DNA from: Closterium sp. NIES-65 | Taxonomy: Eukaryota; Streptophyta; Zygnematophyceae; Desmidiales; Closteriaceae | DNA length: 64,000 nucleotides | Assembly: GCA_948144175.1 (NCBI GenBank) | Contig: CANXME010002409.1 | Coordinates: 1,679,001 to 1,743,000, forward strand | Reading direction: 5' to 3' | In this document: positions 36,518-58,730 of the stretch, one piece after another | Position numbering within the stretch: position 1 is the stretch's first letter | Layout: the number at the start of each line of letters is the position of its first letter | Program-made: the position numbers and the translations under genes | Notes under the pieces: generated by a model | Seen by the model: the letters and a program-made list of their open reading frames with translations, nothing else | Told to the model about the DNA's origin: nothing | Databases searched by the model: none

Positions 36518-37400
36518 TGTAACACGGGCTTATATGAAAACGCCCTTAAAAAACACAATAAAGAACCGGGCTTATAAAAGAATGCCCACAAAAGGGTCAA
36601 TATTAGGGTGCATTCCGCTGTGGACACATGTCCCAATCGATGTGTCCCAATCGAGTGTACCGCTCCAAACCGAACTAAACCAGAGACGCGAAAATTTCGA
36701 AACTGGGGTGCAATTTGGTGTAGTACGATGCAGTGCGGTAGAAACAATTGGGACACATCGATTGGGACATGTGTCCACAGCGGAATGCACCCTTAGGCTT
36801 ATAAAACGCCAAGAACACACACACATAACAGGGACTAGTCCTAATAGTAGCCTGAAGTCTTGGAGGCTTGGTAGGTGAAACCTTGGAAGAAAAAATGTAG
36901 TTTCACCAAGAAGATAGTAGATGCTTGGAGCACTTGTGAGGGAAAAGTCTTGGACTTAGAAGTAAAATCCCATTTCCATTTGGTTAATTGGAAGTTGGGA
37001 GTTGAGAATGAGCTTGGTGAGCTCAATCCCCCCCTAGACCTCCTTGGGGAGCTCCACTTCCTCCATGGCAACAAGGGCAAGGAGCTCCTTGGGGTGAGCT
37101 TGCTTAGGTGGCACAATGGTTGGATTAGCAACCAATGAGAGCAATAGAATTGTGATAAGAATGGTTATGTTACATGTTGTAACTTGTAACAACAATGTTC
37201 AATTGTCATTGGTTGGAATTCCAACTAATGTGGGGTTGGGTTGGATTCCAACCATGCTTGTCTTTTAGTGGGTGGTTGTCCACAATTGTGGACCAATCAC
37301 CACTCATCTCCTCCATCCTCTTCTTCCCGTAAGTCGATACCTTGCTTAGGTAGTGCTTTAGCTAGGAAACGCTCGTAGGGTAGGAGGGCGATGCGTTACA
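36518..37400 (-). repeat. 3' LTR of gypsy B (contains MITE-2)
   Basis: Starts TGTAACACGGG and ends GATGCGTTACA. It equals the 693-bp right LTR plus 190 bp (MITE-2 and its TTA duplication). Confidence 0.96.
36606..36792. mobile_element. MITE-2 (Tourist/Harbinger-like) in the gypsy B LTR
   Basis: 187 bp with perfect 46-bp terminal inverted repeats (starting GGGTGCATTCCGCTGTGGAC) and a TTA duplication (36603-36605 and 36793-36795). The other LTR has the intact empty site (CAATATTAGGC), which proves insertion and fixes both ends. It has no coding capacity. Confidence 0.97.
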
Positions 37401-38701
37401 CTCCTCCCCCTCCAGTTGGCAACGTCCCCGTTACCTTGGAGTGCTTCTTGGGGCGAGTGCTGCGAGCACGACGCACCACGTTACGGCCAGGGTCAACACC
37501 ATCCACTGGCTGCGGGGCTGCTCGGAGAGCCAAGTCTTCCATGTAAGCTTGAACTGCTGTTTCAGTCAAGTGTTCCTCTGGCTCCCAAGAATTGTGTTCA
37601 GGCCCATAGCCTTTCCACTTAATGAGGAACTCACGTTTTGTTTTACGGCCGCGTTGTCGATCACGGTGCATGAGCACACGTTCGACTTCATAATATAGTT
37701 CCTCACCCAGGACGATGGTTGGTGGTGGTTGGTATGTGCCTTCGGCAACATATTTGTTTAACAGAGACACGTGGAAGACGTTGTGAATCTGCAAGGTATC
37801 TGGTAGCTTAAGCTTATAAGCCACCTCCCCAACCCGCTTGATAACCTCGAATGGCCCAATCCAACGAGGAAACAGCTTTCGTGCCCCAGGTAGTTTGAGT
37901 CGAATGTTTTTCGTACTCAATAATACCTTGTCTCCTTCTTGAAAAGAGACGTCCCGGCGTTTCATGTCAGCATAAGACTTTTGGCGTTGTTGGGCAAGTT
38001 GCAACCAACGACGAGCAGACCTAAGCGCTTCTTGCTGCTTGCCAATAAAGTCCTTAGCGGCTGGAATTTTCAAGCCACTGACCCCATGCGTAGCAGGTGT
38101 TGTGGGGTGCCGACCGCAATTTAAGATGAAAGGTTTTTCGTGGGTGCTCTCATGCACCGAGTTGTTGACAGCAAACTCCACTACTGGCAACAGCTCATCC
38201 CAGTGATCTTGTGTTGGGCCAATAAACGAACGAAGCATTTGTTCAAGAGTGCGATTTGTGCGCTCGGTCTGCCCATCCGTTTGAGGATGGAAAGCAGACG
38301 ACATCTTCAGCTTCGTCCCCAGTATCCGAATGACCTCCTGCCAGAAACGGCTTGTGAAACGAGGGTCTCGGTCAGACACTAGCACACGGGGTAAACCATG
38401 TAAACGAAAGACATGTGCCACAAACAACTTGGCCGTATCTTCCGCTGATACGTCAGTGGTTGTAGGCACGAAGTGCACCATCTTGGTCAAACGATCTACG
38501 AAGACGAGGATCGCTGTATGACCATCTCGGGTTTTAGGGAGGTCAGTAATGAAATCCATTGACACACTCTCCCAGGGTTCATCAGGGATTGCAAGTGGTT
38601 GAAGCAAACCACCGGGTTTTTGTGTGCTCGGTTTATTACGTGCACACGTGTCGCAGCGTGTAACAAACTGCTGGACTTCACTGCCCAACCCTGGCCACCA
38701 G
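37396..38701 (-). pseudogene. Gypsy B integrase and chromodomain segment
   Basis: Reads WWPGLGSEVQQFVTRCDTC, then MDFITDLPKTRDGH, LVSDRDPRFTSRFW and GQTERTNR (integrase DDE core), WIGPFEVIKRVG (GPY/F module), HNVFHVSLLNKY, and a chromodomain (FLIKWKGYGPEHNSWEPEEHL). It is open across this segment; its stop TAA overlaps the first bases of the LTR. The upstream half lies right of gypsy C; removing C and one TATA copy joins ALSDV to YWWPG in frame. The chromodomain suggests chromatin-targeted insertion. Confidence 0.93.
37401..37414 (-). other. Polypurine tract of gypsy B
   Basis: The sense strand reads GGAGGGGGAGGAG directly before the 3' LTR. Confidence 0.8.
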
Positions 38702-38705
38702 TATA

Positions 38706-38909
38706 TGTCGGAAACTTGGTCTTTCTGTCTCTCCTCTTGCCTTGTCCTTCCCAGCTCAGTACCTTCTTCCTTCTACCCCTGTCTTTGTCTCGTGTCAGCC
38801 CCTCCCTCTTGTCCCTCTCTTCTCTGTGCCTCCTCTCCCCTTGTCTCACCCCATCAAGTTCCTCAACTCTCTCTTCATGCGTTGAGTGGCTACCCCTGCC
38901 TTTCCCTCT
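38706..38909 (-). repeat. 204-bp segment X, outer copy
   Basis: No differences seen from 39282-39485. It lies between the TATA target duplication and the 3' LTR of gypsy C, where nothing is expected. It begins TGTCGG, mimicking an LTR terminus (TG...). Confidence 0.95.
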
Positions 38910-38910
38910 A

Positions 38911-39279
38911 TGTAAGCACTTGGCTCGATGGCAACCCTCAGAGTCTCCCTAGCTCGGCTGACTGCAGGTGACTCTGAGTGGGCACTGGTACAAGGCTTGC
39001 TGGGATTGGCTCCTCCCTAGTAGGCTAACGAGAGTAGTAAGAAACTCTTAGCTGATAGAGGAAACATACAAGCAAGCAAATGAACCAGACCTGTGTTGCT
39101 TGCCTAAGTATGTGCACTGGGTTACCGTTGCCTGCAACGGTTGGTTTTGTTTCGTCAATTCTCTGATTTGGCGCTATTCGCCCCTGCCTACTTTGCTTCA
39201 AAGCTACTCACTACAATATCCTGTCATGCATTTATATTGCTAGGTCCTGCTTTCTATTCTTCCGATTAAATGTATGACA
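38911..39279 (-). repeat. 3' LTR of gypsy C
   Basis: 369 bp, TGTAAGCACT...TGTATGACA on the plus strand; matches 45767-46135 with about three differences. Confidence 0.96.
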
Positions 39280-39281
39280 GC

Positions 39282-39485
39282 TGTCGGAAACTTGGTCTTT
39301 CTGTCTCTCCTCTTGCCTTGTCCTTCCCAGCTCAGTACCTTCTTCCTTCTACCCCTGTCTTTGTCTCGTGTCAGCCCCTCCCTCTTGTCCCTCTCTTCTC
39401 TGTGCCTCCTCTCCCCTTGTCTCACCCCATCAAGTTCCTCAACTCTCTCTTCATGCGTTGAGTGGCTACCCCTGCCTTTCCCTCT
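39282..39485 (-). repeat. 204-bp segment X, inner copy (3' untranslated, purine-rich)
   Basis: Lies between the end of the polyprotein and the 3' LTR. The sense strand is strongly purine-rich, so it could contain the polypurine tract. Its junction with the LTR reads GACAGCTGTC on the plus strand, a 10-bp palindrome. Confidence 0.92.
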
Positions 39486-42400
39486 TACCCCCTCCTTGGC
39501 GCTAACCCTCGCTCTGGTAGGTATCGCCGATGGACCCCGTTTGTGAAAGGCTCTTCTCTGGTCTGCTCCGGCTGCGTAGGGCATGGGGTTACTCGCTGGG
39601 GCCTTGCCTTAGCTACATTCGTCTGATGATCCCTCTTCTCTTGCCCCTTGTCTCCCACTAGTACTACCACTCCCGACTCTTTGACCTCTTTCACTTTCCA
39701 CCTCTCAGTGCTGAGCCCTATATCCAGCATGTCTTGCCTGGCTTGTTTGACATATACTTCTTCCCCCACCCCCAACGGTGCCCCCTTCGCCCCTGCTTGC
39801 TCTTCTCTCCTTCTTTTGTAGCGTTGTGCGTCTCTGAGCTGGGCCACATGCAGGCTCTCTAAAGCTGCTGGCAGCATCTCCCGTAGGTACCTTGCCCTAA
39901 CCTCGGCCAGCCCCACCCAAGCGTCTTCCGAGCTCACTGAGACCACATCGGTCAGTACTCGTAGCGCGTCTATGGGCAAGATAGGCTCCCTTCCCAGCAG
40001 CAGGTAGTACGGTGAGAAGTCCTTTAGCGCTGCCTGCTTACTGAAGCGGTAGCCGGCGACTACCCACGGGAGTCTCAGGTCCCAGTCCTTCTTGAATTGC
40101 TCCCCGTAAGCTCTCAGTCCTCTCTTCACCGTCTGCACAAACCGCTCTGTGAGCCCGTCACTCTGGGGGTGATACCTGGAGGTCCGCCGATGGGTAATAC
40201 TGCTAGCCTTCAATAGCTTTTCGAATTCGCCCAAGAATTCTGAGCCCTGATCTGTTAATACCTCCCCACATGCTCCGAACCGCGTCAACACCTGTTCCTC
40301 AAATGCCTCTGCTATCCTGGCCGAGCTCTTACTCGGCAGCGCCTTCACCTCCACCCACTTACTGCCGTGTTCGATCATGATGAGTATGAACCGCTTCCCC
40401 CTTCGTCTGAGCGGCATTTCTCCGGCCATATCTAATGACCACCGAAATCCCAGGCCTCTGATGGGCAGCGAGTGCAGCTCTTCCCTCCCTCTCTCCATCT
40501 CGGCTTTGTTCCGGCTGCATAGTTCGCAAGAGCCCACCCACTCTTTAATGTCTCCTCTCATCCCAGCCCACCACCAGCCCGTCTCTATTAGCTGGCTTGT
40601 CCTCAGGCTGCCATAGTGCCCCAGCTGCCGGTGCACCCTCGCTATGATCTCTTCCCGTTCCTCTCGCCTCGGGACCAACTTCCATCCTTCCTTAGTGTTT
40701 TTCTGGAGCTGGTCCCGGAACCACCGGTAATGCAGGCCCCTGGCCCTGGCCCTTTCGCTTGCCGGTTCTGCCTCCGAGTTCTTTCCTTGGATCCACCCTA
40801 GCGTCTCTTCATCCTCCCAGACGTCTTCGGCTCCCTTTTGAGCCTTCCGTTTAGCTCCTTCCCCGTCGATTTCTCTCGCCAAAGCCACGAGGCACGCCTC
40901 TGGGCTCGCCGGTGGCGGGTTGCGGGATAGCCCGTCTACGTGTTGCAATGCTTTCCCTGCTCGGTGTCGAATGGTGAACTCATATTCCTGCAGCCGCATG
41001 GCCCATCGCGCGTTCCGGCCTGTCAAGGCCTGATTGGTCATCAGCCACGTCAGTGGCTGATGATCCGTGACTAACACGAATGGCCTCCCCTGTAAGTATA
41101 CCCGGAAGTGGGTGATAGCCCAGACCGCCGCGAGCCCTTCCCCTTCGTATGAGCTATAGTTGGCTTCGGCAGGGTTACAGCTTCGGCTCGCAAAAGCCAC
41201 CACCATCTCCTGTCCGTCCCTCTCCTGGCATAGGATTCCCCCCATGCCTGCGCTGCTCCAGTCAGTGTATAGTACGAACGGGTCTTCTTTACTGGGCAGT
41301 GTAAGGACGGTTCCCGTCTTCACTGCCTTAAGGAGGGCTTTGAATGCCCCCTGCTCCTCCTCTCCCCATTTCCACACCTGGTCCTCTCGCAGCAACCTGT
41401 TCAATACAGCGGCAGTACGGCTGAAGTTGGGCACGAATTTCCGGTAGTAGTTAAGGAAGCCCAGTACTGCCCTCAGCGTACTGCGGTCCTTAGGAGCGGG
41501 GACTCGGTCCAGGACCTCCACTTTCGCTTGCTGTATACTCAGCTGCCCCCCTTGTACTTTGAAGCCCAAATACTTCACTGTGCTGTTCCCGAAACTGCAT
41601 TTCTTAGGGTGGCAGGTCAGCCCTGCTGCTTGAATGGCATCCAGCGTATCGCCCACGTCCTTCACGTGCTGCTCTGCGGATGCACTGAACACCACTACGT
41701 CGTCGATGTAGCAGGCTGCCGCCGGCACGTGCCTCAGCACTGAATCCATCACCCGCTGGAATAATGCTGGCGCGTTCTTCATGCCAAAGGGCATGAACTT
41801 CCACTCATACAGCCCCTTGGGTCCGTGGAAGGCTGTTTTCCTCCGGTCCTCTTCCTTGATCGGTATTTGGTTAAACCCCTGTCGGAGATCCAGCGTGCTA
41901 AACACTAGTGCTCCTTGCAGCTGATCAAATATCTCTTCCGCCGATTGCATGGGGTACCGGTCCGCCACTGTCACTTTATTAAGTCCTCGGTAGTCCCCAC
42001 ACATTCTCCTGGCTGATACCTCTCCCGTGAGATCCTTCCTTGCTGCTACCACCGTCGCGGCTGCGTAATCACTGTCAGAAACCTGGATGAGCCCCGCTGC
42101 TAACAGCTCCGCGCACTTCTCCCGGCAGGTGTCCAAGTCGCCTGGACTCATCCTCCGTTTTCGTACGTATATGGGCATCTCGGTGTTCAGCTTCACCTGC
42201 ATTTGATGCGATGTACATTGCCCCAGTTCGGATAAGGTGTAGGCAAACGTCTTGCGGTGCTGCTTCAGTACCTCCTGTAATGCCTGCGCTGGCTCTGCCC
42301 CCATTCCGGAGCCTATGGGCCAGGCATCCTCGGGTCCCCTCTCCTGGCTTGTCTTTTCTGTCTCAGTCTCCCCGTCTGGTGGCCGTACTCCTTGGTCTGT

Positions 42401-45400
42401 AGCCGTACTCCCGGCTTCCACGGCCATGCAGGCCCATCCTTCCAGGATACGCGCTTCCTGTTGCTCTTCTATGGCTCTCAGCTGGCGTTTCCGTTCCTCT
42501 GTCTCCTCTTCCTCTCGGTACAGCTCACTGACTTCAATACCCCGTTGGAGCTCTTTCCTCTTTAGGTGCATGCGAATGGTTTCCACCAGCCACGCCATGA
42601 CGTTCAGGTCCATGGCTCTGCCCAGTGCCGCCCTCCGTTGTGGCTCAGTCACCCGAGGGTGGGCAGTAGCTCCCAGCAGGTGCCCCATGGCTAACTCCCG
42701 CTCTTCGGCCGTTGGTTGCTCCCACTGTTTCCCGATGACATCGTAGATCATTCCGGGCCCGGGCACGTCTCCCTCCATCACAAAGCCGTAGGCGTCTACG
42801 TAGGACACGAGTGTCGGCAGCGCCTGTCTCGGCTTCCCCGGCACATTACACTGGTACTGGGACGGGTGGTCTGGCACCGTGACGGGCGCTGGCAGTCGGT
42901 TGGGGCCCAGGATGTCACTAACCAGTCTCGGTTCCGGCCGCTGCATCTGAGCCAGGGAGTGGCGCAACAGGGCTTCTGAGATCCCATTCTGCCAGTATCT
43001 CCTGGGCCGGTGCGCCCTGGACCCCAGCTGCGCCGCGTCTACTGCTTGCCCCCTACCGACAGCGGCTTCTACTTCGGCGAATGCCCGGTGTACGGGCTCT
43101 CTGCGATCGTCAGCGAAGTCCACGTTCTCCCGGATGTAGAGCACTTCCCCTTGCTTCTCTTGAACCATCTCCAACACCCGCTTTAGGTCCCTGAAAGAGG
43201 CCCCCCGTATGTCAGCCATTCCCATTCCTGGTCCGGCCCGAGAATAGCCCTGGCATTCCCATCCTGCCACAATAATGTCAATCTGCCCCCACTGCTCCAG
43301 AGTTTCCTCCGTGATATCCCGGACATCGTCCACCCCTTCCTCATACTCTGCGGGTAGGGCAGACTCGGCTAGCTGCTCGGGATATTCGGCCAGCAGCTGC
43401 CTGGCGTGATGCTGCGCCATTCGGCGCACCACCGGATCTCTTTCCACGTGAATCCACTTCCTCACTCTACATCCAGCACGCAACACCGCCGCCAGTCCTG
43501 TGCCGATGCCACCGTACAGCTCCATGATGCACACTGCTCCTTCTAATGTCCAGAGCCTGGTTACTCTTTCTTTCAGCGAGGTCGGTTCTCGCCCCTGCCT
43601 CCTCCTCTCTATTCGCCGTTCGTACTCCTCCGCGTATCTCTCCCAGCTCCAGTCGTCCAGCACCGGTCCCAGATCAGCAGCCCGTGCTCCGTATGCCTCC
43701 CGAGGCTCGTGCTTCACGAATTTCACGGGCAACGTACCCACGGAACTGGCAGCGTCCGAGTAGTGCACGCGGTACAGCACTTTCTCTTGCCAGGTACAGA
43801 TGGTAGCGCCCACTCGGTAGAGCAAGTCCATGCCCACTAACGCGTCATAATCCTCCGACTCCGACACGCCACAGGTCACGCGGATACAGCATTCCTTGTC
43901 AGTGCCGGGACGTAGTACTATCTCGATGGGCCTTACTGTCCGTGGCATCCATTTCGGTTCTCCTCCCTCGGCGGTCATGAGCAGGATGCCCCTCGCCACG
44001 AGCCTCCCGGGCAAGTCGAGCTTCAGTTGTCTAGCTAGGCTTTTCCCGATCAGCACGTGATGAGCCCCGGTGTCGATGATCGCTTGCCCCACTGGCAACC
44101 CACCTACCGTCAGGCTCCCCTTTTCGGCTATCAGGACCGATGCCTGGCACACCAATCTCTCGTTAGGGTGGCGCCTCAGTTCGGAGGTACTGCTTCCCTC
44201 ATGCACGTTGCCCCGTGGCTCACGTACTCGGCTCGTACGGCTTTCAGACGACTGAGTTCCCCGAATCCGAAGGTCAAGGTCCTCCCTCTCCCTTGGGAAC
44301 GCCATAAAGCCGCTTGCTCGCAGATACTCGCCCTCAATTTCTTCCTCCCCTTTGATCTCCTCGTACGCCAGCATCGCTCTGGCTTTCTGCTCCACCTTCG
44401 GCTTTGCTTCCAGTCTCAGCTGTAACCGTTTGATCTCTGCCTGCAGCTCCTCTTTACTCGGGGTCTCTTCAGAGCGTCGCCGACTGTAGCAAGCTTCTTC
44501 CTTATGCCCCTTCCGCCCACAATTCCCACACACCGGCAGCTTCGGGCACTCTCGCTTCAGGTGGCCGGCTTCCCCACATTCGTGGCACCGTCGGGCGTCA
44601 GCCCGTGGTAGTCCCGTTAGAGGTGTCTCCGTCAGTGCCGCTGCTGCCCATGAGGACTTCGTTTTAGGACGTACCTCCCCATCCTCCAAATCTAGCATTC
44701 TCTGTGCGTGCTCCGTCCGTTTAGCCAAGCCGTAGACGTCCTTCAGGGTGACGTCTGCCCCTATGCCGTACACTGTGTTCCGCACCACATTCCGCAAATC
44801 GTCATCTAGGCCTCGGACGAACTTGCGCACCAGCAACCGTTCATCTCGGCTTTCCAGATCCTCTGCCAGCTCCCTCAGTCGACAGTAGTAGGCGAGCAGG
44901 GACTCATCCTTTCCTCGGCGAAACTCACGAAACTCTTCAACCCGCGCTTTGGTTTGCCCTAGAAATTCCTTTTTCAGCAGCTCGACAAACCGCTCGGTCG
45001 GGTTTCCGATCTCTCCACACGCTAGCTCCTCCAGCACTTCCTCCCGCGTCATGCGATAGAAGGTCTCGGCCTCTCCTGCTAGGGTTACTACCATACGCCG
45101 GAAGAATTCAGCCGGGTCCAGCCCGTCCCGTTCCCAGCAGTACTGCACGGTCTCCAACTGCATCAGATAGTTCTTCAGGGTGGGCCCAACGCCGGGAATG
45201 CCCGTAAACCTCTCGGCTACCTCCAGCTTCGGTAGGGATCCTGCCTGCCACCGCTTGTCTGTAGACCGATCTGGTGCGGCGGCGGTTGACGGAGGCTCCG
45301 CCATTCGACTCGCAATAATCTCTCGCTGCGTCGGCGACTGGAACTCTCCCTCGGTCTGGCGTCGCAGCCAGGTCGCCTGTACCGGCATTTGGTCGGCTTC

Positions 45401-45721
45401 CATCCCCGGCATCAACCCCGGGGAGTTACCAACGGGGCGGCTCTCCCACCGTGCTCTCGCTTCCCGCGCCCAGCGCCTATCTTGGGGTGTCTCTCCTGGA
45501 TCTGACGCGACGGCCCGAGCTGGTTCCATCGCCGCGCGTCGCCTTTGTTCACGTTGGTGCGGGGTCCGGTACGCACCGGTGATCGGCGCTGACGAACTCT
45601 TTGACTCCGTCGATGACTCTCGTTCCAACGCCGCTGTCGCGGCGGCGCGCCAGCTAGGTTCCGCTGAAATATCTTCTCTTCGATAGCTCAACCCTGAGCG
45701 TAATCTAAACCTATCGTTCAT
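39485..45721 (-). CDS. Gag-protease-DNA methyltransferase-RT-RNase H-integrase polyprotein of gypsy C
   Basis: Uninterrupted frame of about 2078 codons from ATG 45721 (MNDRFRLRSGL), the first ATG after the LTR. Order by approximate residue: gag (to 370); two zinc knuckles (380-415; CHECGEAGHLKREC, CGNCGRKGHKEEAC); retropepsin (IIDTGAHHVLIG, near 547); C5 cytosine methyltransferase (733-1047): motif I ELYGGIGTG, motif II-like HVERDP, DVRDIT, motif IV GWECQGYSRAG with Cys 823, motif VI ENVDF (865), AHRPRRYWQN (about 903), and a C-terminal block AALGRAMDLNVMAWLV; RT (MCGDYRGLNKV, CYIDDVVVFS at 1338); RNase H (YTDWSSAGMGG, about 1487); integrase zinc region (about 1694-1736) and DDE core (SLDMAG 1764, LTDQGSEF 1824, GLTERF 1858). 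No chromodomain seen. The motif order is that of DNMT3-like enzymes. It would copy the element and could methylate its own DNA. Unusual: Glu, not Pro, precedes the motif IV cysteine. Confidence 0.95.
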   Translation of the reverse strand: MNDRFRLRSGLSYRREDISAEPSWRAAATAALERESSTESKSSSAPITGAYRTPHQREQRRRAAMEPARAVASDPGETPQDRRWAREARARWESRPVGNSPGLMPGMEADQMPVQATWLRRQTEGEFQSPTQREIIASRMAEPPSTAAAPDRSTDKRWQAGSLPKLEVAERFTGIPGVGPTLKNYLMQLETVQYCWERDGLDPAEFFRRMVVTLAGEAETFYRMTREEVLEELACGEIGNPTERFVELLKKEFLGQTKARVEEFREFRRGKDESLLAYYCRLRELAEDLESRDERLLVRKFVRGLDDDLRNVVRNTVYGIGADVTLKDVYGLAKRTEHAQRMLDLEDGEVRPKTKSSWAAAALTETPLTGLPRADARRCHECGEAGHLKRECPKLPVCGNCGRKGHKEEACYSRRRSEETPSKEELQAEIKRLQLRLEAKPKVEQKARAMLAYEEIKGEEEIEGEYLRASGFMAFPREREDLDLRIRGTQSSESRTSRVREPRGNVHEGSSTSELRRHPNERLVCQASVLIAEKGSLTVGGLPVGQAIIDTGAHHVLIGKSLARQLKLDLPGRLVARGILLMTAEGGEPKWMPRTVRPIEIVLRPGTDKECCIRVTCGVSESEDYDALVGMDLLYRVGATICTWQEKVLYRVHYSDAASSVGTLPVKFVKHEPREAYGARAADLGPVLDDWSWERYAEEYERRIERRRQGREPTSLKERVTRLWTLEGAVCIMELYGGIGTGLAAVLRAGCRVRKWIHVERDPVVRRMAQHHARQLLAEYPEQLAESALPAEYEEGVDDVRDITEETLEQWGQIDIIVAGWECQGYSRAGPGMGMADIRGASFRDLKRVLEMVQEKQGEVLYIRENVDFADDRREPVHRAFAEVEAAVGRGQAVDAAQLGSRAHRPRRYWQNGISEALLRHSLAQMQRPEPRLVSDILGPNRLPAPVTVPDHPSQYQCNVPGKPRQALPTLVSYVDAYGFVMEGDVPGPGMIYDVIGKQWEQPTAEERELAMGHLLGATAHPRVTEPQRRAALGRAMDLNVMAWLVETIRMHLKRKELQRGIEVSELYREEEETEERKRQLRAIEEQQEARILEGWACMAVEAGSTATDQGVRPPDGETETEKTSQERGPEDAWPIGSGMGAEPAQALQEVLKQHRKTFAYTLSELGQCTSHQMQVKLNTEMPIYVRKRRMSPGDLDTCREKCAELLAAGLIQVSDSDYAAATVVAARKDLTGEVSARRMCGDYRGLNKVTVADRYPMQSAEEIFDQLQGALVFSTLDLRQGFNQIPIKEEDRRKTAFHGPKGLYEWKFMPFGMKNAPALFQRVMDSVLRHVPAAACYIDDVVVFSASAEQHVKDVGDTLDAIQAAGLTCHPKKCSFGNSTVKYLGFKVQGGQLSIQQAKVEVLDRVPAPKDRSTLRAVLGFLNYYRKFVPNFSRTAAVLNRLLREDQVWKWGEEEQGAFKALLKAVKTGTVLTLPSKEDPFVLYTDWSSAGMGGILCQERDGQEMVVAFASRSCNPAEANYSSYEGEGLAAVWAITHFRVYLQGRPFVLVTDHQPLTWLMTNQALTGRNARWAMRLQEYEFTIRHRAGKALQHVDGLSRNPPPASPEACLVALAREIDGEGAKRKAQKGAEDVWEDEETLGWIQGKNSEAEPASERARARGLHYRWFRDQLQKNTKEGWKLVPRREEREEIIARVHRQLGHYGSLRTSQLIETGWWWAGMRGDIKEWVGSCELCSRNKAEMERGREELHSLPIRGLGFRWSLDMAGEMPLRRRGKRFILIMIEHGSKWVEVKALPSKSSARIAEAFEEQVLTRFGACGEVLTDQGSEFLGEFEKLLKASSITHRRTSRYHPQSDGLTERFVQTVKRGLRAYGEQFKKDWDLRLPWVVAGYRFSKQAALKDFSPYYLLLGREPILPIDALRVLTDVVSVSSEDAWVGLAEVRARYLREMLPAALESLHVAQLRDAQRYKRRREEQAGAKGAPLGVGEEVYVKQARQDMLDIGLSTERWKVKEVKESGVVVLVGDKGQEKRDHQTNVAKARPQRVTPCPTQPEQTREEPFTNGVHRRYLPERGLAPRRG

Positions 45722-45766
45722 CCTAGCTTGGAAACAGCGATCTGTCGCATTTCCTTGCTTGTATGT

Positions 45767-46135
45767 TGTAAGCACTTGGCTCGATGGCAACCCTCAGAGT
45801 CTCCCTAGCTCGGCTGACTGCAGGTGACTCTGAGTGGGCACTGGTACAAGGCTTGCTGGGATTGGCTCCTCCCTAGTAGGCTAATGCGAGTAGTAAGAAA
45901 CTCTTAGCTGATAGAGGAAACATACAAGCAAGCAAATGAACCAGACCTGTGTTGCTTGCCTAAGTATGTGCACTGGGTTACCGTTGCCTGCAACGGTTGG
46001 TTTTGTTTCGTCAATTCTCTGATTTGGCGCTATTCGCCCCTGCCTACTTCGCTTCAAAGCTACTCACTACAATATCCTGTCATGCATTTATATTGCTAGG
46101 TCCTGCTTTCTATTCTTCCGATTAAATGTATGACA
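45767..46135 (-). repeat. 5' LTR of gypsy C
   Basis: 369 bp, pair of 38911-39279. The open frame extends a little into it, but only with non-ATG codons. The sequence right after it (ACATACAAGC on the sense strand) is not the usual Met-tRNA primer site, so the primer tRNA is unknown. Confidence 0.95.
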
Positions 46136-46139
46136 TATA

Positions 46140-48693
46140 CGTCAGACAATGCCCATCGGGTTTTCTTAACTCCGAGGTGTCCGCTGTATTTACTGGCATG
46201 CACTTCTCGTAAGATGTCATTCCGCAGGTTCCCCACATGTGGTACAACAATTTATTTTCCATGCCACCAGAGCTCATGCTCCCACGAGAGATCCTTCGTA
46301 TTCTGTGGGTTCTGAAACCAAGAATCAATCTGATAGCCTGTGCGGATTCGTTTCAGAAAACCACTGAAGGTAATCTCACTGGCTCGGGCGACAGCGAGGA
46401 TGCCAAAGTAAGCTGCAAAGATGGCAGCATGTTCGGTGTCCTCTAGCCCGTTTGCTGCCCCTATCGGCTGTCTGCTGAGGGGATCAGCCATGTTCGTCGA
46501 GCCTGCCCGATATCGAATATCGTAGGTGAATCCGCTAAGGAGTTCAGCCCATCGGGCTTGGCGACGAGTGAGGGTGGCTTGGCTGGAAAAGTAGGTGTTT
46601 GGACAATGGTCAGTTGTGACAACAAAGTCCACACCTTCCAAGTAACATCGCCATGTTCGTAGCGCATGGACGACTGCCAACAGTTCTTGTTCGGTAGTCG
46701 TATAGCGCTGCTCTGCCGGGGAGAGCTTTCTACTCTCGTATGCCACAGGGCGTCCTTCTTGCAGGAGGACTGCGCCAATCCCTACTGTTGAGGCGTCTGT
46801 GACTACCTCGTAGGGTTTTGTTGGATCTGGTAATACCAGAACGGGAGCATTGGTCAACTTTTGTTTGACCGCTTCAAATGCCTTTTGGCATTGTCTGGTC
46901 CATTCCCACGCGGTACCCTTTCGAGTAAGTGCGGTCAATGGTGCAACAATGGTGGAATAATTCTCCAAGAAACGGCGAAAATAATTGGCTAAGCCCAGAA
47001 AGGACCTGACTTGACCCACGTCTTGTGGAACGGGCCAGTTCTCAACAGCCACCACTTTCTTGGGATCGACTTTCAATCCACTGTTCCCCACGAGATGTCC
47101 CAGATATTCTAGTTCGCGCTTATAGAAGTGACACTTCCATAAGCGAGCATAGAATTTGTGCTCTCGTAGTTTGTTTAACACCCATTTTAGGTGTTCTGTG
47201 TGCTCCTGTTCGGTCTTGGAATATACCAGTATATCGTCAAGGTAAACCAGGACGAACTAGCCGATTGCCTCACGAAAGACATCATTCATCGCCCTCTGAA
47301 AAGAGGCCGGTGCGTTAGTGAGACCGAAGCTCAGCACACGCCATTGAAAATGTCCAAACGGCGTGCGAAACGCTGTTTTGGGTACATCGTCGTTGGTGAT
47401 GCGCAACTGATGGTACCCCTGTGCGAGGTCCAATGCGCTAAACCATTAGGCACCCTGGAGGCGATCAAACAGATCCTCAATGCAAAGCAGCGGATATCTG
47501 TTTTTAATTGTGATCTTGTTTAAGGCGCGATAGTCGACGCACATGCGTAGGCCTCCGCCCTTCTTGTTAACAAACAAGATTGGTGCTCCGTATGGTAACG
47601 CGCTTGGTTCAATCCATCCCTTTTTCAGATAATCCTCGATTTGTTGCTTAGCCTCTTCGTACTCAGCTGGACTGAGGCGATACAGAGGTCTAAACGGTGG
47701 TGCCTTCCCAGGCTCCACTGGAATGGTATGACCCACAGCGCGGTCTGGGGGAAGTCCGTCAGGAATTGGTTCGAAAACCTCCTTGAATTCCTTCGCCAGA
47801 GGCTTCATCTGAGGAGGGAAATCCTCGATCTCAGGAGACGATTGTGTGGTTTCTTCTAGCTGTACCACAAAGAGTGTATCAGCTGATTTTGCATCTTGCC
47901 CAAATTGATTTGCAAGGGCGAACTGAACGTCGGGGCGATCGGAACGTGGGGCATCAACAATGTTTACATCCCCTAAAACATGCCACCGAACCACAACACC
48001 ATTCTTAGCAAAAGTTACTGTGTTGTGTTGAAAGTCAAGGATGACCTCATTGGCTCGAAGCCAGTCCATTCCGAGAACAAGATCTACGCCTGCCAATAAT
48101 GGAAGGACATAAACATTAATGGTCTCGTGATAGCCTTGAATTTCCATATTGATACGTGTCTGCCCTTTGCTTGGGATGACGCGATCGTCACCAAGACGAA
48201 TGGGGCAAGACGGCCCTTCAACGAGGACCCCACGACTTGTGGCTCTGTTTTCATCGAAGAGAGAAACAGTCGCGCCCGTATCAACAAGATTTTTTGCTTC
48301 ATCCCCGTCTATTCGACCCACCAGCAATAGGTTTTGCTGATGTTTTGGTCGAATGGGGCATGCAACGATGCGAGTTGGTGGGAGATAATAAGCCTTGACA
48401 TTGTGCTTTGCTCGACCATAGGATCGACTGTCAGGCCACCACATGTGATATCCCTTGTCCCACGCGGCAAGTAATGTCCATCCCTTAAGCAAGGGGAAGT
48501 GTTTGCCTTTGATGGTTCGAGTCACCAGACTGACCGAAGTCAATGGGTGCTCCTGGGTGCAACGACCCACCAGGTCCATTACGTTGCAGCAAATGACAGA
48601 GAACTTATCTCTGAGTGTTTCGATAGATAGTTGTGTAAGTGGGTGCAATCGAGGTAGGAAAACAGAATTTTCATTCAAAGAAGAAGCAAACAA
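46140..48693 (-). pseudogene. Gypsy B protease, RT and RNase H segment
   Basis: Sense order: retropepsin ([22 protein letters not shown]), RT ([30 protein letters not shown]), RNase H (TDASTVGIGAVLLQ, VVTTDHCPN) and the integrase zinc region (REVHASKYSGHLGVKKTRW). Stops: TAA at 47446, TAG at 47257 (just before the YLDD box, where relatives have a sense codon), TAA at 46252. Motifs are otherwise well preserved. The right part continues in the piece at 38701 once gypsy C is removed. Confidence 0.92.
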
Positions 48694-48800
48694 ACAAGAG
48701 ATTTTGCACTCAGCAAGTTTCTCTAGCTTTAATAGATCATCGTCACGAAGGACGGAAGCTTCATCACCTCGATCTACGTGTCCTGCTAGGTACCCACAAC

Positions 48801-50240
48801 CTAGTTGGACTTGGGAAAATCTTGACGCGAGCCTGAAGGTCCATCTCCCTTCTTGTTCGCCTGCTGCGGCTTGCCAGAATCCTCAGACCTTTTCAGCGTA
48901 CGGCACTGCCCCCTGGTATGGCCAAACTTCTTGCAGTAGGTGCAGAAAGGAATTCCGTTCCTCTGCTGGCCACCCTTGTGAAAAGGCTTCTTAGGCTGTG
49001 GCCCATTCTGCTGGCTCTGCGGCTGGAATGGCCTCTTCTTCCAAGGGCCTTTCCCATTGGAAGGCTGGGCCGCATTGGTCTGGCCACTAGGGCCTTCACC
49101 CCCGTTCTGCAAGTGACCCTTGGCGGCATTAAGGCAGGTGCGGACGCTCACGTCAAGATCAATGACAGCTGTCTTGAGCTCCTTGTACGTAGTGTACTAT
49201 TTCCTGCCCAGCACGAGCCTCTCGCGAAGCCACTGGGGTAAGCCTTCATAGAACGACGACATTGCCTCGTTCTCAGTGAGAGCGACTATCAGGAGTAACA
49301 GGGTCCGTTCGAACTCGTTGGCATACTCCTGCACAGTGCGAGTTCCACACTGCATGCTCTTGATGCGGCTGCGCACCTCCAGGTCAGTCTTTTGCACATG
49401 GAAAGCGTCTTTCATCGCACTGCAAAAATCTGACCATCCGAAGGTGGCCGACGTTGCTCCAGCGAGCTTCATAGTGCTGTAGATTGTGTTGCGCGCAGTC
49501 TCATCGAGAGCACCAGTAGCAGCAATAACGCGTGCATCAGGGCGCACGTTGTGGACGGAAAGCATTTCCTCCACGTGATGAAGCCAGGATTCCACGTTCG
49601 TCTTGCCATGAATGAAATTCGGCAAGCCAGTGGGGAGCGACCCAAATGCGGGTGCGTCTGGCGACATCGGCTGCTCTGTTGGAGCTCCGGCAGAGGTAGA
49701 GGGTTGGCCATTGTTAGGAGGGGGGCGATATATCGGCCTCCTCCTGAGCTCCCTATACTGAGCTTCCAGCGTCGTGCAAGTCGATTCAAGACTGATGCAC
49801 GTAGCACTTAGCTGCTGCAGGGTGTCCTCAAGGCTCTTGATCTGGTTGTTCTTGAGGCCAAGAGACCTCTTAAACTGACGAGCCTCGGCAGTGACTTTGG
49901 TAAGCTGAGACTGGATGGTTTCGATTGAAACTTTCTGTTCAGCAACTTGAGCCTCAAGCTCATTGACCCTGCGTTTCTGCTGCAGCAAGGAAGATGCTTG
50001 TTCGGCCACCGTGGTTTGAAGTTTTTCAAACTCCTCAGGGAAATTATCATCGGTGCCAACATCATCAAGCCCTTCCTGTTCTCCATTCTCTTCCTGGTTT
50101 CCCAGGGCTTCTTCCTCTTCCTCAGGAAGGTCCCCTATGACGTCCTCAGCATTAAAGTCAAGGTCTGGAAAGTCTTCCAGTTCATCAACTGAAGTCATAG
50201 GGACATCCTCCTTTGGTGGTTCCTTATGAGGAGTAGCCAT
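48801..50240 (-). pseudogene. Gypsy B gag
   Basis: Starts at ATG 50240 (MATPHKEPPKEDVP). An acidic N-terminus (about residues 10-75) is followed by a long coiled coil (about 80-165), a Pro-rich linker, a retrotransposon gag core (NFIHGKTNVESWLHHVEEML ... EYANEFERTLL) and, after a TAG at 49197, a single CCHC zinc knuckle (CTYCKKFGHTRGQC). The frame ends in TAG near 48800, and pol resumes in another frame. Gag packages the element RNA in virus-like particles. With near-identical LTRs, the single stop could be recent. Confidence 0.9.
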
Positions 50241-52630: not shown

Positions 52631-52850
52631 CACCCCCATAGCCTAAGTGGGGAAGGCCAATCAACAACAAGCAACCTACGGTCACAAGACCAGTCAAAAA
52701 CAAGAGAAAGAAAACAAAGCTCAGGGTGGATCACAACGTCACCACCTAATCTGAGCACAAGCAAAGGGCCACAAGGCCAGTCCAAAAGTGTGCAAACAAA
52801 TATATATATAAGGTACAAGCAAGCAACAGACAAAGAGCACCCTACAGCAG

Positions 52851-55071
52851 TCAACTAGACCCAGTCTCAACGAGGCCTAATTCCAGACAAAACCGACGGT
52901 GGTCACAAGGCTGGAGGGCCTTGGTGAAGATGTCTGCAGTGTTGGCCTCGGAGGCCACAAAGTCCAGACGAGCCTGTCCGCGTCTCTGCAACTCTCGAAG
53001 GAGGAAGTACCTGACGTCGATGTGCTTCACTCGGCTCTCCAGTCGAGGCTCACGACACAGGAGAATCATCGCCCTGTTGTCAGCAAACAGGGTCGGTGCA
53101 GAGCTCGGCCGCTCACCAAGGTCAGTGAGCAAAAAGGTCAACCAGCGTAGCTCCTGAGCAGCAAGGGCCCCAGCGTAGATCTCGGCCTCTGCGGTAGAAG
53201 TCGCAACAGAGGAGGACCGAGTAGACCTCCACGAAACAGCTCCAGAACCCAGGCTGAAACAGTAACCCTGCGTAGACCTCGGAGTCTCAACGTCGTCAGC
53301 GTAGGAAGAGTCACAGTGACCGGTGAGTACAACTGGCTGTGTCCCTCCAAGTACAAGCCCCATGCCTGATGTCGCGCCAAGGTACTTCGCCACCCTCTTA
53401 GCCGCCGCCCAGTGAACAGGACGGTGTCTCCCAGTCGCAACAAAGCGAGACAGGATGCTAAGGGGGAAGGCGAGGTCCGGGCGAGTGCACGTCATCAGGT
53501 ACATGAGGCAGCCCACCAACTCTGCGTAGGGACCACTGGGCTCGAACGGCTCGTCAGGAAAAGGCCCAGTGAGTCTGTGGTCTACAGCAAGAGGAGTGGG
53601 GGCAGGAGAAGAGTCCTGAAGCCCGAACCGCTGAAGAACCTGCTGCACCATGTGTGACTGAGTGAGAGTGATGGTGCGAGCGGCTCTGTCCCTGGAGATC
53701 TGCAGGCCAAGGTAGCGGCGCAGTTCCCCAAGGTCAGTGCAGGTGTGTCTCTTCTGCAGTTCGGACTTCACCTCCGCCAGTGCAGCTGTGTCGGCCGTGG
53801 CAAAAACCAAGTCGTCAACGTAGACTAGGACGAAGAAAGGTGTACGGCCACGACGAACAAACAGCGACGGGTCGGCGGAAGACGGCTCAAACCCGAGGTC
53901 GGAGAGAGTAGAGCGGAGAGTGTCGTGCCACTCACGGGGTGCCTGGCGGAGACCGTAGACCGGTCGTCTGAGGCTCCATTGGGTCCCAGGCGGGAAAGTG
54001 CCAGTGAAGCCCGGAGGACGACGCAGCCAGATCTCCTCGTGTAAGCAGCCCTGGAGGAAGGCAATGGAGAAGTCAAGAGAGTGTAGCTCGTAGTCTCTCT
54101 GCGCTGCTACGTGCAGTAACACCCGAAGAGTGGTCATCTTCGGGGTGGGCGCGAAGGTCTGAAAGAAGTCAACCCCCTCGCGCTGACTGAACCCTCTAGC
54201 CACGTAGCGTGCCTTGAAGACTGGGGGAGATCCCGGCGGCCGCTTCACCTTGAAGATCCACATGCCGTCAACAATGTTCGCCCCTGGGGGGGGAACCTCG
54301 TCAACGTAAGTGCCTGTGGACATGTAGGAGGCCATCTCTGCGTCCATGGCAGCTCTCCACTGAGAGGCCCAAGGCCCTGACACTGCCTCAGCGTAAGTGC
54401 GAGGAGTAGGTATGTCAGGAGCGTCGGGGTCTCCCTCAGGAGTGAGCAGCATGGCACAGAGATGAGGCGAAGCAGCTGCCAAGAACTCTAGCTCAAACTG
54501 TCTGTCCTCTAGGACGTCACAGCCAAGGGCACACACACCCCCGGCGGACAGAGGACGGACAGGAGGAGCTGCCACAACTCGAGTGGCGTAGTCAGGGCGA
54601 GGCGTAGCAGTAAAGTCAGTGACAACGGCAGTGAGGACCGCGACGGAGGAAGGAGAGGCACGAGGGTCTGTAACAAGAGAGGCGAGAACACGAGAGAGAG
54701 TGGGGCGGTACGTGCGGTAGTAGTCAGTGACCGGAGTGGACAGGGAGGCAATGAGGGAAGACTCAGGAGGACGAGGAAGGACAGACGGAGGAGAACGAGG
54801 AGGACGAGGACGAAACAACACAGTACGGAGGTCAGTGACAGGGGACGAGGGACGAGCACGAGGAGGGCGAGAGGCCCAAGTGTGGGCGAGAGGAGGGGGG
54901 GACGGAGGAGACTGAGAACGAGGGAAGACAGCCGGAGTGGAGTCCGGAGGAGGAAACGTGGGACCGAACACAGGAGGAGAGGAGGGGAGACCAAGGGCCC
55001 GAAGGCCAGAAACAGGGGCCGGAGGCTACTCCGGCAGCTGCGGCGGCTGCTGCTGCTGTGGCTGTGGCTGC

Positions 55072-55115
<44 letters not shown>

Positions 55116-58100
55116 AAACTCCAACCGCTCACGCTCCACCCGCTGCTGAACCTCCGACCTCTCACGCTCCAAACGCTGCTGCTCCTCACGCTCTAGACGA
55201 CGAAGGGCCTGGTAACGAGTCGGGTAGGGGTGAGGAGGAGGAGTGGTGTCAGGAGACGACGAAGAAGAACCGGCTCCACCCTCGACAGGACCCGGCTGAG
55301 CACCCCCAGAGCGAGGACCCCCTACGGCAGCACGACCAGTACCTGTAGGAGGTGTACCCGCACCCCCAGTCGTGGCGCCGCCAGTGGCACCAGCCCCAGA
55401 CTCTCCAGCTCCAGAGACACCACCAGCTCCAGCACCACCACCGACTCCAACACGCTCGGGACGTGCAGCTGCGGCAGGTGCACGCTCAGCTCCAACTCCA
55501 ACACCCCCAGAATCAGCACCGCCAGAGCCCTCACCTCGAGCACCAACACCCTCAGAGTCCGCAGTGGCCGGGAGAGGAAGCGCCGACGGCTGCTGCGGAG
55601 GCTGTGAGGACGACTGTGGGGAAGGAGAAGAGACCTGGGGGGGGGACCAAGGAAGGGGGGGTAGCCTGCGACACACCTGACGGAGCGGGAACCGGGGGGG
55701 TACCGGAGGAGAGGGAGCGGGAGGAGGAGGAGCTGGGGCGAGGAAGAGGGGAGGGGGGGGAACCGGGAGACCTCGACAGGGGTACCGGACGAAGTAGGGG
55801 ACGGACTCGTCGAAACTGACGTCACGAGAGTCAAAGAACCGGTGGGAGGGAGGGTGGTAAAAGGTGAAGTCAGAGGAGGCCTCAGGGAAACCAAGGAAGA
55901 CACAGGGGACGCCGCGAGGTGAGAGCTTGTCTGCAGAGGTGTCGCGGACAAGTGCCAAGCAGCCCCAGACACTAAACCTCGACGCAACACCAGGGGACCC
56001 TGTCCAAAGACTGGTCGGTGAAGCCCCTGGCCGAGAGACGCGAGGCCAGAGGTTCAGCTGGTGAGCGGCGTACCGAGCCGCGTAGGGCCACAGAAAATGG
56101 GGCGCGCGGGCGTGGATCATGGAGGTGCGGGCAATCTCCATGACCAGGCCTAGCCGGCGCTCAGCAACCCCATTCTGCTGTGGAGAGTCTGGAAGAGTCC
56201 AGGACTGGGTGATGCCTTGCTCAGCACAGAATCTGGCGAGAATGCCGGAGCAAAACTCACCCCCACGGTCGGAGTGGAGACAACTGACACGACGACGACG
56301 AGTACTCTCGGTGGCGAGTAGCCACCGGATCAGCGTAGAAGTCACGTCGGACTTCTTCGCCAAAGGGAACACGGTGGTGTACCGAGAGTAGTCGTCAACG
56401 ACCACTAGGAAGAAGCTCTCTCGCTCAGGTCCAAGCCGTGGAGCGGGGCCCCAGACGTCTAAGTGGAGTGTCTCAAAGTGCTCGGAGGCTGGACGAAGGG
56501 AGGAGGAGTGAGGAGTGGCGCGCAGCCGACCCTGGACACAAGGACCGCACGGAGGAGCGGGGGACGGCGGGAGCGACGGGAGGTCGCGGGGGAGGCCTAA
56601 GACAAGACGCTGACTGGACATAGCGCGGAGACGAGAGAGGGACGGGTGACCAAGGCGGTGGTGCCAGAGGAGGGCAGGGTGGGACAGCGACCGACACGAG
56701 CACGACGCAGCCACTAGACCTGGCACAGCTACCTGACTGGACCTGGCTACCTGGTGGGACGGGGGAACCGGACGGGTGTCGGTGTGGAGGGTGTACAGAC
56801 CAGAGCCCGGCTCCTGACGAAAAGTGGCCAGAGGGGCGTACGTGTCACCGTCCACACAGACTGCAGTGTCACCCGAAGGCTCAAACCAGACCCCGACGTG
56901 CTGTCTCGCCAGAGGAGCCACACCAACCAGGTTCCTAGAGAAAGTAGGAACGTGGAGGCCGGTCAAAGAACCGGAAGGGGCAGCTGGGCACGGGAGGGTA
57001 GTGGCGTGAGTCGCAATGACCGGTCCCGAAGAGGGATCGGCCAGTGCTACAGAAACCGGCGCCGAGAGTGGAGTAAGAGTCGTGCTGTCGCGGAAGAAGC
57101 ACTGCGTCGCTCCGGAGTTCAGTGTGAAGGAGAGCGACGCGTCCGCCGAGGGAGCACCTGTACTAGTAGCTAGACAGGATCCTACACCAGCACCTACTCT
57201 AGCAACAGGCAAAGATCCTACGCTAGGTACAGGCAAGTAAACAGATCCGACAGCACTATAGTCAACATCAGCATACATGGCATAAGACCTAGCATCATCC
57301 ATAGACATATCAAACACAGCAACACCACGAGCAAGGAGTGGTCCCCAGCGCGGTGGCGGGGGAGCGGAGGGACCGTGGTGCAGGACGTACAGGTCATCAA
57401 GACGGCTGAAGCAGCGTGCAGCAGAGTGGTCAGGGCGGCCGCAGTACGTGCCCCTGCGCGGACCCGTCAGGATCCAGTACTCACAGGGACCAACGTCGCG
57501 GCCGGCCGAGCGGGGTCCCCGACTAGAAGGGGCACCACTGCGCCCAGTGCTCGGGGGGCCCGTAGGTCTCCACTGCTGCGGGGGGGCCCACTGCTGCGAA
57601 GGGCCCCACTGCTGCTGAGTGCCCCACTGTTGGGGCTGCTGCTGAGGCGGACGCTGCTGTTGGCCCTGGCGCTGCTGCTGCTGTCCCTGTCGCTGCTGCT
57701 GTCCAGGCAGTGGCAACTGCGGAGGAGTCTGCTGCTGCTGCAGCGAAAACCCCTCACCACCGTCTAGAGGAGAGCCGTCAGGTCCCGAGTCACCCCCGCC
57801 GCCACCCCCGCCACTAGTACTACCGCCACCGCCGCCACCCGCAACACCCCCAGAACCCCCGCCGCCCTTCCCTCCCTTCTTGCCGGACTTGCCACGTTTC
57901 TGTCCGCCAGAGACAGAAACGGCCGCCGTCTCCTCAGAGGCAGAAGACGCGGCAGTGGCAAGCAAGGCAGTGAAGGTGGGAAGCTGTGGTACCGCACACC
58001 CCTCAAAGAGACAAGGAGGAGGCGCGGAAGAGGCGGAGGCAACAGCGAGGAGGTTACTCTCGATCTTCGAGAGAGCGGTCTCAAGAAGATCGATAGTAAG

Positions 58101-58730
58101 CTCAGTGGGGTGCTTCAGGAGAAGCGCGTCGCGGGCTGTGGCTAGACGGTCAGGGAGGCGAGTGACTAACCAGTGAATAGTGAGCCACATGGGGGGGGGT
58201 GCAAGGGCAAGCTGTTCCTCAGTGCAAGCGGCCTTGAAGCGAGCTTCAAGGGAGCGCAGGTGGGTAGCGAGGTCAGCAACAGTCTCAAAGGAGGCGAGGT
58301 CAGGGTAGATAAAGGGGACGAGGAGGCGGCTGAGGGAGGCAGAGGAGGGAGTGGAGTAGCGAGCAACAATAGCAGTGTAAAGGTCTGCAGCAGACTCGAC
58401 CTGAGTGAAGTGGACAGCCTCAGTCGGCGGGAGAAGGTCGGTCAGGGCGAGGCAGGCAGCAGCGTCACGAGACTCCCACACGTCACGAGCGAGGAACCGG
58501 CGCTGGTACTCAGCCTCCTGCTCGGAAGTAGGCGGTGGGGTAGTGGGCAGCGGTGAAGGCTGCGGCGGGGCGGGCAGAGCACCGGACGCATGCGCAAACA
58601 GGTGCACGCCATCCTGGCGCTGGCTCCTAAGGTGGCGTTGGGCCTGCGTCAGCCAGGTACTAAAGTCGATCGCACGCCCCTCAGGGTCGAAACGGAGCAC
58701 GCGAGACGTCGCCATGAGGGGCGAGGACAA
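52851..58730 (-). pseudogene. Copia-4 gag-pol with one in-frame TAG
   Basis: One frame of 1960 codons from ATG 58730 (MSSPLMATSRVLRFDPEGR) to TGA at 52851, interrupted once by TAG at 55026 (codon 1235), right after a poly-Gln tract (about residues 1204-1226). Order: gag (1-230), Gly-rich and Gln-rich tracts, atypical zinc segment (CEYWILTGPRRGTYC...C, about 415-440), protease (FTLNSGATQCFF, near 538), GAG-pre-integrase (LLWHHRLGHPS), integrase (LDVWGP, LHSDRGGEF, NGVAERR; about 757, 820, 855), RT with intact VYVDDLVFA (about 1636), RNase H (LTGHCDSSYADD). The protease catalytic Asp is Asn. It may be a fresh non-autonomous copy; readthrough of TAG is possible but would not repair the protease. 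Confidence 0.93.
55055..55120 (-). repeat. CAG/CTG (poly-Gln) tract in copia-4
   Basis: A run of CTG/CTT triplets on the plus strand encodes about 14 consecutive Gln followed by mixed Gln-Pro. It lies between integrase and RT, just before the TAG stop. Confidence 0.95.

Follow-up and report, generated by a model that had tools for sequence, protein, structure and literature searches.

In a 64,000-nucleotide stretch of the genome of Closterium sp. NIES-65 (GenBank assembly GCA_948144175.1, contig CANXME010002409.1, positions 1,679,001 to 1,743,000; hereafter the window), a Ty3/gypsy element carrying a DNMT3-type cytosine-5 (C5) methyltransferase lies on the minus strand at 38706-46135. Comparison with 53 further loci of the same genome suggests that such DNMT3-bearing elements probably insert as permuted DNA: self-primed reverse transcription would be followed by joining of the ends of the complementary DNA (cDNA), and the integrase would then cut a palindrome in the U3 part of the long terminal repeat (LTR). 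Retrotransposon-borne DNMT3 is already known; the integration route is apparently new. The parts of the window element, in window positions and ordered along the minus strand, are as follows.

38706-46135, minus: whole element, TATA on either flank
46136-46139, minus: target site duplication TATA, 5' side; repeated at 38702-38705
45767-46135, minus: repeat A1, begins TGTC; modelled as the 3' part of U3 followed by R and U5
45920-45932, minus: predicted self-primer CTTGCTTGTATGT, perfect complement of the site immediately past A1; putative 5' end of the RNA
45754-45766, minus: primer binding site ACATACAAGCAAG, assigned by its complementarity to the self-primer
39485-45721, minus: single gag-pol frame from the first ATG, stop at 39485
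44489-44587, minus: two CCHC zinc knuckles, residues 402-434 of 2101 (Pfam)
43811-44113, minus: aspartyl protease, DTGA at residue 573 (Pfam)
42575-43543, minus: DNMT3-type C5 methyltransferase, residues 750-1072 (Pfam, alignment, profile)
within 42575-43543, minus: methyltransferase motifs ELYGGIGTGL, AGWECQ, RENV and AHRPRRYW, which we take to be motifs I, IV, VI and VIII
41555-42007, minus: reverse transcriptase, YIDD at residue 1361 (Pfam)
40982-41287, minus: RNase H (Pfam)
39911-40678, minus: integrase with H2C2 zinc finger, D1787, D1847 and E1882, the last two 34 residues apart (Pfam)
39486-39497, minus: polypurine tract AAGGAGGGGGTA, abutting B1 on its 5' side; the motif recurs in other families and in L138, a related contig
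39282-39485, minus: repeat B1, ends GACA; modelled as the 5' part of U3
39276-39285, minus: palindromic B1|A2 junction GACA-GC-TGTC, proposed integrase cleavage site
38911-39279, minus: repeat A2
38910, minus: single extra T separating A2 from B2, read as a joining scar
38706-38909, minus: repeat B2, ends GACA
38702-38705, minus: target site duplication TATA, 3' side

One open reading frame (ORF) spans 39485-45790 of the minus strand, with 2101 codons from the first TTG and 2078 from the ATG at 45721. Its Pfam matches are, in order, zf-CCHC, aspartyl protease, PF00145, RVT_1, two RNase H models, Integrase_H2C2 and rve; zf-CCHC and the protease scored slightly below their cut-offs, and PF00145 reached 27 bits against a cut-off of 22. 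An earlier note on this DNA, made from the letters alone, had described a single frame with gag, zinc knuckles, protease, methyltransferase, reverse transcriptase (RT), RNase H and integrase, and the Pfam matches bear this out in the stated order. Its assignment to Ty3/gypsy holds as well, as RT, RNase H and then a DDE integrase with an H2C2 finger follow one another in one polyprotein.

The repeats are not those of a conventional LTR retrotransposon. Identical terminal LTRs do not bound the element, which starts with a lone A and finishes with A2-B2. In a self-comparison of the window, A1 and A2 differ at 3 of 369 positions and B1 and B2 at 0 of 204. The earlier note had spoken of nearly identical LTRs; the near-identity stands, while the label does not, the repeats being split direct repeats of the PAT type, A1-ORF-B1-A2-B2. 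A plain LTR reading was discarded on this repeat map. The recent insertion that the note proposed is, in our judgement, right. When the flanks are joined without the window element, the interrupted integrase frame of another element reads continuously. This host element, by eye a Ty3/chromovirus-like gag-pol, occupies window 37396-38688 and 46252-50240 on the minus strand, split by the insertion.

Split direct repeats are also found in Ngaro elements, and the layout could be that of a DIRS/PAT/Ngaro-type element integrated by a tyrosine recombinase. The frame has no tyrosine recombinase among its Pfam matches to E 0.1, however, and encodes a DDE integrase instead. PAT has the same layout (PMC3266345), but no target duplication accompanies DIRS1 integration in that account, whereas 4-bp duplications are present here. 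We give this explanation next to no weight.

The 53 further loci were examined in groups of 20, 10, 10, 12 and 1. The A-ORF-B-A-B layout recurs in other families of the genome and in the window's own family, and a one-off rearrangement of the window copy was dropped on this ground. The outer ends are TGTC...GACA, and 4-bp target duplications were found at 28 of 30 independent A-ORF-B-A-B insertions. The first set of loci had them at each of 13 independent sites (a script found them at all 14 loci; TATA, GAGG, CATC, GTCA, GTAG, CTGG, AGTT, TGCC, ACTC, TGAA, TCTC, ATAC, ACGC), the second at 3 of 3 (CCAC, ACCG, TGAC) and the third at 11 of 13; outside the 14 scripted loci, duplications were read by eye from the flanks. 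Excluded from these counts were L021, C387 and C850 (same sites as L020, C612 and C1975), C1133 (tandem), C1770, C106 and L024 (stretch without A1), L022 (without B2), C2165 (N letters in its 5' stretch), and L028, C1739, C105 and C2111b (not resolved). C729b was counted although it lacks B1 and the initial 32 nt of A2. In C1133, B precedes A1, and the 2 kb upstream of it contain the tract and the C-terminal 42 residues of another, truncated copy; this locus is therefore a tandem and not a separate insertion type. A head-to-tail trimer (G000:C995:455000-479200) of a methyltransferase element has single shared B-GC-A junctions and AACA on both flanks, and supplies the one remaining insertion of the 28 of 30. 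Ten single-unit A-ORF-B insertions were also examined; eight had a duplication (L009, L011, C2069, C180, C2219, C2033, C729a, C1072) and two did not (L018, C676). Such single units could have arisen from 1-LTR circles or through a subsequent exchange between B1 and B2.

At the B1|A2 junction, the palindrome GACA-GC-TGTC was found in 15 of 16, 4 of 4 and 17 of 17 members of three locus sets (36 of 37, same-site duplicates included; C729b is without this stretch). The sole exception, L025, departs from it by a single base. At the outer ends TGTC and GACA are present but the GC is absent, as would be expected if integrase cleaved behind CA on each strand of the palindrome with loss of two bases. 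Retroviral integrases remove two bases at LTR ends.

Directly past A1, 13 of 14 copies, and all 5 of a further group, have a site that is the exact reverse complement of 12-14 nt within A; in L023 the perfect match spans just 8 nt. The perfect pairs, ten distinct ones with L138 included, differ between families and change together. As a control, 0 of 47,760 internal 12-mers from eight copies had a complement in their own A. Thus the primer site is complementary to the element's own sequence, as in Tf1-type self-priming, and the primer would be the 5' end of the RNA. Priming by transfer RNA (tRNA) was set aside, since the site past A1 lacks an initial TGG and has an exact complement within the element; a tRNA match was not searched for. 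A polypurine tract ending GGGGG(C/T)A lies upstream of B1 in 13 of 14 loci (not in L019) and in 8 of 8 of the second set. With the tract before B1 and the primer site after A1, B is the expected start of the cDNA and A its expected end. The LTR is thus B+A, and the integrated ends TGTC and GACA fall inside it.

The join between A2 and B2 is variable. Among ten copies of the window family with at least 97% identity, it is exact in C2061, C1639, C2346, C966 and C1672, has an extra T in the window and C729b, an extra A in C2050 and an extra AT in C1726, and is without 27 nt of B in C1642. The six copies of a second family have an exact join in L013 and L016, a 1-nt overlap in L010, an extra T in L025 and an 8-nt microhomology in L012; in L026 the join lies 274 nt beyond the usual A end and 13 nt of B are lost. 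More distant members of the window family are mostly exact (C612, C1665, C1133, C1770), C106 having 7 extra nt, C1975 one nt fewer and C1829 lacking 28 nt of A. Other joins, seen by eye, include 8 extra nt (L027), tract remnants (L015, C1819) and microhomology (C2165); mismatches or a missing tract near B1 meant that L019, L023 and L027 were read by eye. The B1|A2 junction has no variation of this kind. As A2|B2 varies and B1|A2 is fixed, A|B is apparently made anew in each cycle and B|A is copied.

These joins bear on a conventional explanation, in which a linear cDNA with A-start and B-end termini integrates as usual and A2|B2 is an inherited, frozen rearrangement. Exact ends with 4-bp duplications are an ordinary integrase product, and the same layout is known from Klebsormidium (PMC5890265). 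However, among copies with 97-99% identity in A and B, A2|B2 differs whereas B1|A2 is constant, and the tract before B1 and the primer site after A1 put the cDNA ends at B-start and A-end. The structure of L014 also argues against it. The 5' end of this copy reads A, up to 12 nt of the primer site, then A without its first 130 nt, the ORF and a single B, and its duplication is GCAT. If its left LTR was unfinished and so had no palindrome, the right-hand palindrome alone was open to cleavage, and this structure is what a circle model predicts. We consider the conventional explanation very unlikely.

We propose the following route instead. The RNA would start at the 13-nt self-primer within A1, whose first base is A+204 in the window copy and which would fold onto the complementary site just past A1 and start minus-strand DNA, and the polypurine tract ahead of B1 would start the plus strand. 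The product would be an ordinary linear cDNA, B-A-ORF-B-A, with each LTR consisting of B+A. This cDNA would not integrate by its B-start and A-end termini. The A end would rather be joined to the B start, each copy having its own losses, gains or microhomology at the join, and a 2-LTR circle or head-to-tail dimer would result. Integrase would then cut both strands after CA in GACAGCTGTC, the GACA-GC-TGTC palindrome of the left LTR, and drop the GC, and the permuted A-ORF-B-A-B would be inserted with a 4-bp target duplication. The repeat layout, exact ends, duplications, near-invariant palindrome, primer complementarity and variable join are read from sequence, and from them we infer the RNA start, the circle itself, the joining agent and the cutting enzyme.

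RT alone might also make the permuted product. On reaching the A end it would jump to the B start on a different strand, and integrase would cut the resulting head-to-tail cDNA at two palindromes, with neither a closed circle nor host end joining required. RTs can add extra bases and jump at microhomology, and the +T, +A and microhomology joins fit these habits. Multimeric units do occur, as the AACA-flanked C995 trimer shows, but a trimer might also arise by unequal exchange. By contrast, the losses of 28 nt of A in C1829 and 27 nt of B in C1642 resemble joined, processed double-strand ends, as does the 274-nt extension with loss of 13 nt of B in L026. We consider template switching unlikely as the sole source of the product.

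Several points weigh against integration of joined cDNA ends. No circle, RNA or protein was seen, the data being genomic sequence. C1639, C676 and L018 have no duplication, and C1829 matches at 3 of 4 bases. Exact joins common to several copies could be inherited, and one-base extras could be sequencing errors, although larger scars hardly could. Later B1 x B2 recombination could also explain the single-unit A-ORF-B insertions, and head-to-tail dimers or RT template switching would give an identical product. Finally, every A-ORF-B-A-B insertion used the left palindrome and kept the right one whole, which is not expected by chance; no A-B-A-ORF-B insertion was seen, and among the 40 A matches listed no pair had the required spacing. 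In standard reverse transcription the left LTR is completed and double-stranded first, and our guess is that integrase may engage it first for that reason.

The methyltransferase is of the DNMT3 type, as the earlier note had held. Motifs I, IV, VI, VIII and X are in unrearranged order, and DNMT3 is the best match by sequence: a profile of the window domain and 11 relatives, compared with solved structures, ranked DNMT3A first (E 8e-23), then DNMT3B, DRM2 (2e-10) and M.HhaI (3e-9). The note had named a profile search as its check, with the lack of any C5-methyltransferase match counting against it; PF00145 and DNMT3A matches were found. An AlphaFold2 model of the domain had a mean predicted local distance difference test (pLDDT) score of 88.1 and a predicted template modelling (pTM) score of 0.89.

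Comparison of related copies indicates that the methyltransferase is maintained by selection. The ratio of nonsynonymous to synonymous substitution (Ka/Ks) between L010 and L025 was 0.05 for the methyltransferase (322 codons, Ks 0.17), alongside 0.05 (protease), 0.15 (RT), 0.04 (RNase H) and 0.04 (integrase). Thirteen pairs were compared; apart from this one and L011/L027, they showed saturation in one or more domains or had diverged too little for a judgement (11 pairs). All 12 aligned relatives share, without change, the catalytic Cys of motif IV, the Glu-Asn of motif VI and the two Arg of motif VIII. Both results speak against a passenger with no enzymatic role. On the other side, motif IV is AGWECQ, with WEC in place of PC, in 20 of 20 copies of this genome, none of which has the Pro-Cys that is, to our knowledge, near-universal in motif IV of DNMT3 methyltransferases. 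In the same 20 copies the motif VI Glu-Asn is kept in all and the strict motif VIII pattern in 17; PC is retained in L138, P0017, P0019 and P0020. Between L011 and L027 (domain Ks 0.04-0.15), the methyltransferase had a Ka/Ks of 0.25 (with a Ks of 0.04), whereas RT had 0.06, RNase H 0.04 and protease 0.08; integrase, though, had 0.24. CpG observed/expected was 0.78 in the element versus 0.76 and 0.78 in the rest of the window, so there is no depletion and no mutational footprint backing the methylation of cDNA or host genome that the earlier note thought possible; the argument for self-methylation from CpG depletion was accordingly dropped. In yeast, a relative from Klebsormidium showed no activity, a finding described by the authors as inconclusive (PMC5890265). 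On balance a passenger seems improbable to us. Our guess is that the enzyme most likely acts on the element's own cDNA or circle prior to insertion.

In the genome (874 Mb, 2400 contigs), PF00145 had at least 123 scored matches among 901 candidates, a lower bound that includes matches not all shown to be elements. Relatives were found in Closterium (source of the nearest named proteins), metagenomes, Chromochloris zofingiensis, Marchantia, Calypogeia and Sphagnum, and no sequence named Klebsormidium was among the protein relatives retrieved. The bryophyte relatives of the retroelement DNMT3 (Marchantia, Calypogeia, Sphagnum) are P0083, P0085, P0087 and P0106, one of them labelled CCHC-type. 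Two domain orders occur. The methyltransferase lies between protease and RT in the window, Closterium, P0007, P0009 and L138, and between RNase H and integrase, mostly with a PHD finger, in P0011-P0013, P0015 and P0017-P0020, where the position of RT or RNase H is visible in only part of the proteins. In 21-row trees each order formed one side of a branch, with support by the Shimodaira-Hasegawa-like approximate likelihood ratio test (SH-aLRT) of 100 for the methyltransferase and 98 for integrase; the domain tree is without DNMT3, DRM or another cellular outgroup, and the quick integrase tree has long branches. Copy L015 adjoins a Closterium NIES-53 protein in the tree. One capture of the methyltransferase followed by a move inside the polyprotein, rather than a capture per genus, fits the split between the two orders but is not shown by it.

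A search of viral contigs with the window domain gave no relatives, and one with the alignment gave 41 loci, 24-50% identical over parts only. Fourteen loci came from prokaryote genomes, and L138 alone was examined further. L138 (CADCWO010000201.1) is a 9.3-kb contig in the bin Synechococcales cyanobacterium AVDCRST_MAG81, and is eukaryotic by gene content. By eye it encodes gag-protease-methyltransferase and RT-RNase H-integrase with a PHD-like end, and its methyltransferase is 43% identical to that of the window. The polypurine tract AGGGGGGGCA and the palindrome CACGACAGCTGTCACG repeat the window pattern. In a 2-kb region, the sole perfect complementary pair of at least 11 nt and more than 20 nt apart was one of 13 nt at the expected place; this primer overlaps a hairpin. 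The contig ends share 127 identical bases, which can be a true circle or a collapsed repeat, and L138 was not counted as a circle.

The closest published system is KnitGypsy-Dnmt3 of Klebsormidium nitens (PMC5890265), which bears out the earlier note's remark that retrotransposon-encoded C5 methyltransferases had been published. It shares with our element the Gypsy domains, a Dnmt3-type enzyme in the Pol polyprotein and DIRS-like repeats (noted in the Fig. 4 legend). The main text of that paper does not contain 'palindrom', 'circular' or 'junction', and uses 'duplication' for LINE elements only. SymbioDIRS-Dnmt3 likewise has a Dnmt3 domain and A-coding-B-A-B repeats, but a tyrosine recombinase where our element has a DDE integrase (PMC5890265). 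PAT has split direct repeats, DIRS1 a circular intermediate, and DIRS1-like elements also carry a methyltransferase; unlike the element here, with its DDE integrase and 4-bp duplication, they use a tyrosine recombinase, and DIRS1 makes no target duplication (PMC3266345). Tf1/sushi, plant Tcn1 and TAR also take the primer from their own RNA, but they are described as LTR retrotransposons, and 'methyltransferase' is absent from the main text of that paper (PMC6317226). Retroviral 2-LTR circles have LTR-LTR joins made by non-homologous end joining (PMC3148978). In that review of human immunodeficiency virus (HIV) DNA they are dead ends and linear cDNA is the only integration precursor, whereas here the joined form is apparently the one inserted. 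A 2025 paper restates the occurrence of DNMT3 in retrotransposons (PMC12344493). In the open-licence literature, as far as it was available, we found no report of target duplications, an internal palindrome, self-priming or circle-based integration for DNMT3 retroelements.

A broader reading, which we put forward tentatively, is that a green-plant DDE-integrase lineage might regularly integrate end-joined, probably circular, cDNA by means of an att-like U3 palindrome, and that the methyltransferase might serve the circular stage, for example by marking or protecting it before insertion, because two unrelated retroelement orders that would both pass through circles, DIRS with its tyrosine recombinase and the elements described here, have each acquired DNA methyltransferases. 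If so, the linear-cDNA rule would have a natural exception in this family, whose full insertions combine a U5|U3 joining scar with exact integrase ends within U3. There would also be a reason why the same odd repeat layout accompanies two unrelated integration enzymes, and the capture of a DNA methyltransferase would be tied to a circular DNA stage. The family gives simple, directly testable predictions.

The window contains further repeats. Several related elements, by eye Ty1/copia-like, lie on the minus strand at 9400-33100 and 52850-58730, and inverted-repeat matches at 62.8-64.0 kb suggest a further Ty1/copia-like element in the opposite direction. There is an inverted repeat at 36605-36682 and 36716-36793, with arms of 78 nt that are 86% complementary, and a long tandem repeat with an 8-bp step at 58946-59250.

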